Part shown: positions 9,651 to 12,401 of the stretch, in pieces
How positions within the stretch are numbered: the first letter of the stretch is position 1
Layout: the number at the start of each line of letters is the position of its first letter
DNA from: Planococcus sp. PAMC 21323
Lineage (GTDB): Bacteria > Bacillota > Bacilli > Bacillales_A > Planococcaceae
Assembly (NCBI RefSeq): GCF_000785555.1
Contig: NZ_CP009129.1
Span: 2,790,001 to 2,854,000, forward strand
DNA length: 64,000 nt
Direction: 5' to 3'
Made by a program: the position numbers and the translations under genes
The notes under the pieces: generated by a model
The model's database searches: none
Told to the model about the DNA's origin: nothing
Seen by the model: the letters and a program-made list of their open reading frames with translations, nothing else

Positions 9651-9680
9651 GTTAGAATAAACAAAATGGAGGTTAGTATG

Positions 9681-11177
9681 ATGTCTGAAAAATATTCTCG
9701 ACAAGAGATTGTTAAAAGTGTTCCTCAAAAAGGCTTTTTTGGTCATCCAAAAGGGTTGTTCACATTGTTCTTCACTGAGTTCTGGGAACGGTTCTCTTAT
9801 TATGGAATGAGAGCGATTCTAGTTTTCTATATGTATTACGAAATGTCCGAAGGTGGACTTGGTCTTGATCAGACGACGGCTTTATCTATTATGTCTATTT
9901 ATGGATCGCTCGTTTACATGTCCGGAATTATCGGTGGTTGGTTAGCCGACAGGATATTTGGTACTTCTAAAGCTGTATTTTACGGTGGAATACTTATTAT
10001 GCTTGGGCATATTGCTCTAGCAATACCTGGAAATTTAGCTTTATTCTTTGTTTCAATGGTCTTAATTGTACTGGGTACCGGTTTATTGAAACCAAACGTA
10101 TCGAGTGTAGTCGGTGAAATTTATGCAGAAAATGATGATCGCCGCGATGCAGGATTCAGTATTTTCTATATGGGTATCAATATGGGTGGTTTCTTAGCAC
10201 CGTTAATCGTTGGTACAGTTGGGATGAAAATCAGCTTTCACTTAGGTTTCAGTATTGCAGCTGTCGGGATGTTCCTTGGTTTGGTTATTTTCGTACTGAC
10301 GAAGAAAAAGAATCTTGGTTTGGCAGGAACGGTTGTACCAAACCCGTTATTACCTTCTGAACGTAAAGCAACAATTAAAGCGTTTACTATTGGTGCATTG
10401 GTAATTGCAGCGGCAATTGCTATTGGAATTCCAACAGGATTATTGACCTTTAACAGCTTTGTCGGGATTGTCGGGGTTTTTGGTATTTTAATTCCGGTTG
10501 TCTATTTCACTGTTATGTACCGTAGTAAAAAAACAACAGAAGTGGAACGCTCGCATCTGTTAGCCTATATTCCTTTATTTATCGCATCCGTTATGTTCTG
10601 GGCAATTCAGGAGCAGGGTTCTACTATTCTTGCTGCATATGCAGATAAACGCACAGATCTTGAATTTGCAGGATTCACGATTTCTCCTGCTTGGTTCCAA
10701 TCATTAAATCCATTATTCATCATTATGTTAGCTCCGGTTTTTGCCTGGTTATGGGTTAAACTTGGAAGCAAACAGCCATCGATTCCGCAAAAATTTTCTC
10801 TTGGATTACTATTTGCCGGTTTATCTTTCTTAGTTATTTTATTACCAGTTTATTTCGGCGGACCAACAGCATTGGTTAACCCACTTTGGCTTGTTCTTAG
10901 TTATTTTATTGTTGTATTAGGTGAGCTTTGCCTATCTCCAGTTGGATTATCAGCAACAACTAAATTGGCTCCTGCCGCTTTCTCAGCTCAAACAATGAGC
11001 TTGTGGTTCCTTTCTAACGCTGCTGCTCAAGCAATTAACGCACAGTTGGTTAAGTTCTACACAGTTGAAAACGAAATGATGTACTTCGGAATTATTGGTG
11101 GTGTGTCTATCGTTCTAAGTATCGCGTTGTTCGTCTTTGCTCCACGTATTCAAAGCTTTATGAAAGGCGTTCGCTAA
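9681..11177 (+). CDS. dtpT: POT-family proton-dependent di/tripeptide transporter
   Basis: A proton:oligopeptide symporter of the PTR2/POT family, about 498 residues with 12-14 membrane segments. The diagnostic ExxERFxYY motif appears as FFTEFWERFSYYGMRAIL near residues 27-44, and the PTR2 signature GGWLADRIFG follows near 85. A later LCLSPVGLS stretch matches the second family motif. Possible starts are 9666, 9678 and 9681; the GGAGG at 9668-9672 overlaps the first and is 8 bases before 9681, so 9681 is preferred. It should import small peptides for nutrition. It is transcribed alone and ends at a strong terminator. Confidence 0.93.
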   Translation: MSEKYSRQEIVKSVPQKGFFGHPKGLFTLFFTEFWERFSYYGMRAILVFYMYYEMSEGGLGLDQTTALSIMSIYGSLVYMSGIIGGWLADRIFGTSKAVFYGGILIMLGHIALAIPGNLALFFVSMVLIVLGTGLLKPNVSSVVGEIYAENDDRRDAGFSIFYMGINMGGFLAPLIVGTVGMKISFHLGFSIAAVGMFLGLVIFVLTKKKNLGLAGTVVPNPLLPSERKATIKAFTIGALVIAAAIAIGIPTGLLTFNSFVGIVGVFGILIPVVYFTVMYRSKKTTEVERSHLLAYIPLFIASVMFWAIQEQGSTILAAYADKRTDLEFAGFTISPAWFQSLNPLFIIMLAPVFAWLWVKLGSKQPSIPQKFSLGLLFAGLSFLVILLPVYFGGPTALVNPLWLVLSYFIVVLGELCLSPVGLSATTKLAPAAFSAQTMSLWFLSNAAAQAINAQLVKFYTVENEMMYFGIIGGVSIVLSIALFVFAPRIQSFMKGVR

Positions 11178-11197
11178 TTACCATAAAAGCAATCATA

Positions 11198-11230
11198 AAA
11201 ACCCCGACAGTTTTTTACTGTCGGGGTTTT
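11198..11230 (+). terminator. Intrinsic terminator of peptide transporter (copy 1)
   Basis: AAAACCCCGACAG and CTGTCGGGGTTTT form a 13-bp stem. The 32 bases at 11199-11230 recur unchanged at 11601-11632. Confidence 0.92.
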
Positions 11231-11234
11231 AGAC

Positions 11235-11595
11235 TGTAGACAAAGTCTTAATAAGATGAATAGTGGTGTATAACCTCCAATCGATCTGGCCACTTCGCTT
11301 TCCTGTGGGCTCAGCTTCAGCCTCCTCGTCACTGACGTTCCTGCGGGGTCTTCAGCTTTCGCTATCCCACGGGAGTCTTCGTAGCCAGACCGATTGGAAG
11401 CATTTAGCTTTAATCAAAAAGGAGACTCCTCATTTGGTTCTTACTAAGAGCGTATTAATACGCTTCATAAGCCCAACACTTCAGGATTCGGAGCGCAAGC
11501 CCGCGGAAAGCGTCCGCCTGGAGCGCAGAATTCGATAGAAACAAGATGAAAAAACTATACATTCTTTACCGGTTATAACTATTCTTTTGTCTACA
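11235..11595. repeat. Foldback (MITE-like) element between duplicated terminators
   Basis: The 361-bp segment has matching inverted ends: TGTAGACAAA at 11235-11244 and TTTGTCTACA at 11586-11595, then GAATAGT and TATAACC inside each end in the same order. Inside lies a nested imperfect palindrome (11276-11398) whose outer arms TCCAATCGATCTGG and CCAGACCGATTGGA differ by one base, a perfect palindrome AGCGTATTAATACGCT (11449-11464), and a GC-rich stretch resembling repeats common in Bacillaceae (11490-11535). There is no transposase. The ORF 11263-11538 is considered non-coding. It could be a non-autonomous element or a structured RNA. Confidence 0.6.
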
Positions 11596-11600
11596 AGCCG

Positions 11601-11632
11601 AAACCCCGACAGTTTTTTACTGTCGGGGTTTT
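11601..11632. terminator. Second copy of the peptide-transporter terminator
   Basis: Identical over 32 bases to 11199-11230. No gene ends directly before it, so it is either a duplicated target sequence or the end of transcripts reading through the foldback. Confidence 0.8.
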
Positions 11633-11686
11633 GTACTTACTTGAAAAAATCTTCTTATTTTATTCGCTTCAGGTGGACGTGTCCGG

Positions 11687-11729
11687 ACTCACAGGATGTG
11701 AGTCATGTAGCTTTGCGACAGGACGTCGC
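11687..11729. other. Two small hairpins with AGGAY loops
   Basis: ACTCAC-AGGAT-GTGAGT (11687-11703) and GCGAC-AGGAC-GTCGC (11715-11729) are perfect short stems that, on the plus strand, both present AGGA in a five-base loop. On the minus strand, downstream of the pentapeptide gene, the loops read ATCCT and GTCCT. GGA in a hairpin loop is the known CsrA-binding form; a role here is a guess. Confidence 0.45.
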
Positions 11730-11759
11730 TATGAATTTTTAAACGTTTCTTCTATAATA

Positions 11760-12401
11760 TTAGTCGTTTGCTATAATCATGCCCATTTGACGTGCAAAGG
11801 CAATTGCTTGATCAGTAGAAACAGTGCAACCCTGAAGTTTGTCTATTGATACTTGAATGCTTTCAAAAGTGTTGGTGCTAAGATCGATTCCGTTAAGACT
11901 TGTTTGCGTAAAGTTGATGTCATTTAGATCACATAACCGGAATTCACTGTTCTTTAGTTCCATTTCATAAAAGTCGGCAAACCTCATGGTAGAAGAAACA
12001 AAGCTAACTGTGTTACATAAGGTAAAACCAAAAGTAGCATAATTTAGCATGCATTCTTCAAAGAGCGTATGACGAATTCCTGCTTCAGCAAAATTGGTCC
12101 CCATCAGTTTGGAGTTTCGAAATTCAGTTCGGTGAAAAACTGCACGGCTCATGTCCATGTTTGATAAATCACAATTCAAGAATATTACATCGACAAACTC
12201 CGAACGGGGCCAGCTCGCTTCAAGAAATGTAACATTTTCAAATACCACTCTATCGATATGGAGTGCTTCCTCTGTATTAAAGTCAATGGTTTCCTGTGAA
12301 ATTCGGCAATTGCTTATGTAATGATCATCCAATGCCTCTGTAAAAGAACGTGTTTCTAATTCTTTTGGGAGCAAAGGTGTTAATCTTTTTGTTTTTTTCA
12401 T
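11760..12401 (-). CDS. Pentapeptide repeat protein
   Basis: A 213-residue protein made largely of pentapeptide-type repeats A(D/N)LXX, seen as FENVTFLEASWPRSEFVDVI and many F/L-centred pentads between about residues 40 and 180. Such sequences fold as a right-handed quadrilateral beta-helix; known members include Qnr/MfpA-type gyrase protectors, but many have no known role. ATG 12401 follows AAGGAGAG by ten bases; an upstream in-frame extension to 12425 is less likely. It lies directly downstream of the UspA-like gene on the same strand with a weak hairpin between. Function is not assignable from sequence alone. Confidence 0.8.
   Translation of the reverse strand: MKKTKRLTPLLPKELETRSFTEALDDHYISNCRISQETIDFNTEEALHIDRVVFENVTFLEASWPRSEFVDVIFLNCDLSNMDMSRAVFHRTEFRNSKLMGTNFAEAGIRHTLFEECMLNYATFGFTLCNTVSFVSSTMRFADFYEMELKNSEFRLCDLNDINFTQTSLNGIDLSTNTFESIQVSIDKLQGCTVSTDQAIAFARQMGMIIAND

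Follow-up and report, generated by a model that had tools for sequence, protein, structure and literature searches.

Downstream of a peptide transporter gene in the window (the whole 64,000-nucleotide stretch of Planococcus sp. PAMC 21323 DNA that was analyzed), two identical hairpins enclose a small element that is very probably a non-autonomous miniature relative of the IS1182 subgroup whose members end in CAGACTGTAGACAAA...TTTGTCTACAGTCTG, inserted at the terminator of the transporter by a transposase from elsewhere with duplication of the whole hairpin. The duplication coincides with the hairpin, relatives of the host carry a single hairpin at the same place, and autonomous elements with an IS1182-family transposase display the same flanking pattern. 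Transposition itself is deduced from comparison of sequences rather than from observed movement.

Results

Two identical hairpins enclose a small element in the window

The 32-mer AAACCCCGACAGTTTTTTACTGTCGGGGTTTT found 3' of the stop codon of the POT-family transporter gene is repeated exactly with a start-to-start spacing of 402 bp, as a preliminary description of this DNA had reported, and the segment separating both copies measures 370 bp instead of the 361 bp given there for the element (Table 1). The inverted ends claimed in the same description could be located at 11235-11275 and 11571-11595, where TGTAGACAAA (11235-11244) pairs with TTTGTCTACA (11586-11595), GAATAGT (11258-11264) with ACTATTC (11578-11584) and TATAACC (11269-11275) with GGTTATA (11571-11577). 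The nested palindrome, spanning approximately the interval given in Table 1, was likewise recovered in paired form in the folds of both element strands, and these folds were far more stable than those of shuffled sequences (z of -9.0 and -10.6). The site lies between convergent genes, the next one encoding a pentapeptide-repeat protein on the opposite strand. A mechanical terminator scan did not flag the two hairpins of the window, probably because their T tail is located inside the stem.

The element carries AGACTGTAGACAAAG at its left end and the same sequence inverted at its right end, corresponding to the terminal inverted repeat of the IS1182 subgroup, CAGACTGTAGACAAA. Because it contains no transposase gene of its own (the longest ORF listed within it has 91 aa), it was filed as a non-autonomous relative, and its small size, inverted ends, target duplication, lack of a gene and presence in multiple copies are those of a MITE. 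Removal of the hairpin and absence of target duplication, the mark of IS1272-type insertion, were not observed at this locus, since the hairpin is duplicated. Group IIC introns insert at terminators; group II intron RNA was absent among Rfam matches to E 1 in the interval 11100-11760, and no match within the element itself attained the gathering score of an Rfam family. A possible resemblance of the left end to a Tn7 transposase site was dropped. Outside the element, a Bacillaceae-1 RNA (RF01690) lies a short way beyond the right hairpin on the - strand (11688-11755, 38.8 bits for a gathering score of 35).

Table 1. Coordinates of the element, its flanking hairpins and the upstream gene in the window.
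Feature	Position	Strand	Basis
POT/PTR2 peptide transporter, upstream gene; its terminator-like hairpin is the probable target	9666..11177	+	PF00854, 277 bits
Duplicated putative terminator hairpin, left copy (original or duplicate)	11199..11230	+	Sequence; single like hairpin at that place in L226, L227, L228 and L234
Non-autonomous element (MITE)	11231..11600	+	ORF list, repeat searches, flank scoring
Terminal inverted repeat, left: AGACTGTAGACAAAG (family form CAGACTGTAGACAAAG)	11231..11245	+	Sequence
Terminal inverted repeat, right: TTTTGTCTACAAGCCG on the + strand (family form CTTTTGTCTACAAGCTG)	11585..11600	-	Sequence
GC-rich internal palindrome (nested foldback)	11277..11397	.	Sequence, strand folds
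GC-rich right arm with GCCCGCGGAAAGCGTCCGCC; similar sequence in the leader of the autonomous IS at L201	11484..11534	.	Sequence
Duplicated putative terminator hairpin, right copy	11601..11632	+	Sequence

Related elements are widespread and mostly flanked by duplicated hairpins

Searching the host genome with the element returned 30 matching stretches, some of which comprise the GC-rich inner repeat only. Ten regions were read with their flanks: L011, L016 and L018 lie between two copies of another hairpin, and L010 and L015 do so in part. Relatives of the element were present in 26 of 46 genomes of the genus, the host of the window included (E <= 1e-10), and the ends CAGMYTGTAGACAAARK were found in 40 of the 151 genomes of a Planococcaceae family search, representing 11 of 19 genera; the reversed control pattern of these ends gave zero matches in the table of the 151 family genomes. 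Small forms also exist outside the genus of the window, since short derivatives (~430-700 bp; L199, L206, L210 and L214) that share the ends and are likewise flanked by hairpins were observed in two genomes of another genus (g14). The GC-rich intergenic repeat of the GCCCGCGGAAAGCGTCCGCC type, present in the right arm of the window element, occurs as well in the leader of an autonomous IS (L201, 3060-3170), and other places in the host genome match it over the inner part only.

In order to score the flanks, 82 unique loci were assembled, consisting of the copy in the window plus 81 of the 90 loci fetched, the small-element copies being a non-random sample drawn from the best matches. The nine loci left out comprise six places fetched twice and three (L018, L121 and L122) missed by BLAST with the left end, L018 having been read by eye. 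One readable end was lacking in 16 of the 82 loci, leaving 66 copies to be scored. The left and right flanks of 54 of these 66 copies matched above a threshold of 15.6, set at the 99.9th percentile of 4,290 mismatched left-right pairs, some of which correspond to orthologous sites. The median flank score was 22 as compared to 6 for mismatched pairs, the highest of which also reached 22. In 44 of the 54 copies the match begins directly at the left end of the element.

The duplications in these 54 copies are near-identical on the two sides, 16-41 bp long, and involve hairpins that differ between sites. Their length tracks the span of the hairpin (r = 0.80), both values lying at most 3 nt apart in 46 of 54 cases, and the first base of the duplication is predominantly A (44/54) and the last one T (42/54). 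Across the same copies, A makes up 63% of the 8 bases 5' of the left copy and T 62.5% of the 8 bases 3' of the right copy, as expected if the terminators work in both directions, and we infer that these hairpins do function as terminators. The terminator flanks and the inverted ends are found together in related genomes, and the duplication in the window is not due to chance, since it recurs with other hairpins in 54 of the 66 scored copies. The suggestion of terminator-targeted insertion made in the preliminary description is thereby supported.

Twelve copies fell below the threshold (L009, L010, L015, L017, L058, L059, L060, L062, L118, L128, L151 and L167); some of them are degraded duplications (L010 and L128), and others show altered ends or a hairpin on a single side. 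The copies are not all separate events, a few pairs being one insertion common to two species: L136/L139, L126/L149 and L127/L058 share their left flank across two genomes. Most scored small elements are ~270-600 bp in length, one reaches 806 bp and two measure 2.1-2.2 kb and contain a nested IS. The ORFs of these two long copies, L108 (1086-3315) and L109 (1177-3275), were considered as a source of the partner transposase and rejected, as by eye they belong to an IS4-like IS that has inserted within the element and possesses separate ends, CATGCGCGTCAACTTAAG. The two loci come from two species and carry the same IS4-like IS at an identical inner point, with differing duplicated hairpins around the elements; the composite may have moved as a unit.

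The insertion site in relatives and the orientation of insertions

The 3' end of the transporter gene could be located in 24 of the 46 genus genomes, including that of the window. Element ends followed the gene in none of the 23 other genomes, over at most 260 bases examined (one contig leaves 36 bases and one 205). Four of these loci, L226, L227, L228 and L234, display one hairpin each, of the type CCCGACAG...CTGTCGGG, with no element at the corresponding site; the transporter gene is 91% identical to that of the window in L226 and 89% in L227. At two orthologous terminators the element points one way in one species and the reverse way in another (L134/L142, with 96% identical flanks, and L135/L152, 93%), indicating that the element can insert either way round.

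Autonomous relatives encode an IS1182-type transposase

Elements of ~1.7 kb with the ends CAGACTGTAGACAAA...TTTGTCTACAGTCTG, a single transposase gene and identical flanking hairpins were found at five loci of one genome of another genus (L198, L201, L203, L204 and L207). The transposase of L201 (P0001) matched the IS1182-family model NF033551 with 473 bits (cut-off 270) and exceeded the cut-offs of PF13751, PF05598 and PF01609, which identifies it as a DDE transposase of the IS1182 type. Long variable duplications are a property of the IS1634 family, and P0001 scored 23 bits against the IS1634-type model NF033559 (cut-off 100), which places it outside that type. The IS1182 content of the window's genome is limited to a fragment, and no relative of P0001 was detected in that genome at E <= 1e-40. 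At this same cut-off, P0001 was matched in 4 of the 46 genus genomes, three at 38-45% identity; G044 yielded a close match (67% over 220 residues, the C-terminal part at a contig end), and this fragment carries the end sequence of the subgroup adjoining a hairpin. With the exception of the G044 fragment, the IS1182 copies of the genus with placeable ends (16 loci listed) were rejected as partners because their ends differ. The shared ends and the common flank pattern suggest that a transposase of this IS1182 subgroup mobilizes the small elements in trans, as far as sequence can tell.

With four transposases of this kind as queries, named genomes yielded 285 relatives, of which the best 80 were taken; 47 of these 80 loci, hand-listed for having flanks on both sides, were analyzed, the other 33 being mostly contig-cut or partial matches. 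Among these 47 IS loci from the best 80 of 285, 34 possess a flanking direct repeat scoring at least 16 and measuring 18-52 bp, a score attained by none of 300 mismatched pairs. A hairpin covers at least 80% of the direct repeat in 33 of the 34 loci. Among the hosts of these 34 loci are Lysinibacillus, Sporosarcina, Metabacillus, Streptococcus, Secundilactobacillus, Lachnospiraceae and Serratia, a single L. fusiformis strain contributing several loci. The duplication produced by a DDE transposase usually has a fixed length that the enzyme determines, and 32 bp had initially been judged too long for an IS duplication, a premise that fails for the IS1182 subgroup given the lengths measured here. 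Among the 13 loci that failed the duplication score, L250, L263 and L315 show by eye two unlike hairpins, an arrangement expected from recombination between copies, L261 is a near-duplication whose left end is cut by the 350-base flank limit, L318 and L321 resemble duplications that are degraded or only half present, and for the remainder inspection by eye recovered one end, or no hairpin that matched.

IS1182 groups of one genus differ in the apparent fate of the hairpin

The genus of the window also harbors IS1182 copies with other ends, which have a transposase of the same family as the autonomous relatives and, by eye, terminator-like sites, but which display a loop-only duplication or none instead of duplication of the whole hairpin. 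Copies ending in GAGGCCACTGAAAAACT (L080, L081, L082 and L083) show 7-9 bp duplicated in the hairpin loop region at all four loci, the stems of two being clean by script and those of the two others by eye. Copies ending in GGGGCTGTCCCAAAAG (L078 and others) show no duplication at 8 of 9 loci and 4 bp at one, and are mostly flanked by A-rich and T-rich tracts; a hairpin may have been lost at these insertions, as read from the filled loci. For a fourth IS1182 group, with ends near GAATCAATTTCATAA, no hairpin was seen by eye. In a transposase tree each group falls on one side of a branch, with weak support for the whole-hairpin group (56/76) and very long branches between groups, for which the program warns of long-branch joins. 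On balance we favor the view that this widespread IS1182 subgroup has a non-fixed duplication length (16-52 bp) dictated by the fold of the target, with joints at the feet of an extruded terminator hairpin, that IS1182-related elements of a single genus represent the three outcomes that have been drawn for structure-dependent transposition (loss of the hairpin, duplication of its loop, duplication of the hairpin as a whole), every outcome belonging to a transposase group of its own, and that insertion by the whole-hairpin route is nearly harmless.

Discussion

In the mechanism that we propose, a transposase supplied from elsewhere would insert the element at the intrinsic terminator that follows the peptide transporter gene by joining the two DNA strands at opposite feet of the hairpin. 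Gap repair would then copy everything between the joints, hence the whole hairpin whatever its length, and each neighboring gene would be left with one hairpin. The enzyme would recognize an extruded hairpin or a cruciform, in which the feet stand side by side, and it would follow from such recognition that the target rather than the enzyme determines the length of the duplication. Conservation of a hairpin for the genes on both sides would also account for the tolerance of many copies of the element.

The form in which the target is recognized could be different. A symmetric transposase dimer might read it as a double-stranded palindrome, in keeping with duplications that are palindromic and with symmetric joints, where A prevails at one foot and T at the opposite one; yet the joints lie 16-52 bp apart, so that one complex would need to span widely varying lengths of duplex, and the feet are brought together only in the folded form. 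We consider this reading unlikely. The target might instead be a hairpin folded by single-stranded DNA, exposed either at a replication fork or in the course of transcription, and not a cruciform in duplex DNA. The terminator-like nature of the targets and the A-rich and T-rich tracts bordering them agree with this reading, which is conceivable but doubtful, since duplication of the whole hairpin would need both strands to be joined and a cruciform would account for this more simply.

The identity of the two hairpins in the window could result from a tandem duplication of the terminator region, or from recombination between two terminators, having trapped an unrelated repeat, and both capture by tandem duplication and insertion by homology had been put forward in the preliminary description. 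These proposals are contradicted by the different hairpins present at different copies, placed at the exact left end of the element in 44 of 54 cases, by the one like hairpin at the same site in four relatives and by the same flanks around autonomous relatives. Recurrence of the pattern in small elements and IS loci refutes the trapped repeat as a general account, and we give it practically no credence. Retention of the element for the function of a regulatory RNA or of a terminator module, instead of as mobile DNA, would agree with the strong folds of both strands, but the lack of any Rfam family at gathering score within the element and the absence of its ends behind the gene at all 23 orthologous loci, within the bases examined, make this very improbable. 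We thus retain insertion by an IS1182-subgroup transposase at a terminator hairpin as the best explanation.

If this explanation is true, duplication of the whole hairpin makes insertion nearly harmless, both neighbors retaining a terminator, and landing after genes with a hairpin left on each side suggests how such repeats are tolerated. The finding accounts for one class of intergenic repeats in these bacteria. A duplication length that follows the fold of the target across many genera constitutes a natural data set for structure-guided DNA integration, and the existence of IS1182 groups in which the hairpin seems to be lost, copied at its loop or copied entirely renders the choice of the joints testable by protein comparison.

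ISfinder lists duplications of 0-60 bp for IS1182, and curators of this family may therefore know of whole-hairpin duplication. As an observed outcome it was not found in the literature searched, which included the accessible parts of PMC10969869 and PMC9208149, specialist IS databases lying outside this search. The bacterial MITEs treated in the accessible part of PMC10969869 resemble the window element in being short, gene-less and present in many copies, with inverted ends and presumed mobilization in trans; they differ from it in that terminator-like sequences are located inside the elements instead of being terminators duplicated as targets. ISCbo5, another member of the IS1182 family, also uses hairpins at gene ends: its insertion sites, with one exception, are hairpin-forming inverted repeats at the ends of genes that were taken as transcription stop signals, and the portion of that report at hand does not mention hairpin duplication (PMC3098183). 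The closest parallel described in the available sections of PMC5678879 and PMC4923244 is that of IS1272/TnSha1, IS1182-family elements of staphylococci. Like the window family, they target hairpins without common sequence, several of which are confirmed terminators (by RNA-seq for targets of TnSha1, where the hairpin is partly deleted; PMC4923244), and one target received insertions of either orientation. Duplication of the whole hairpin is drawn in the available part of PMC5678879 as a possible pathway (b) only. According to these same sections, IS1272/TnSha1 removes the hairpin wholly or in part and generates no duplication, whereas the family of the window element duplicates the hairpin in its entirety.
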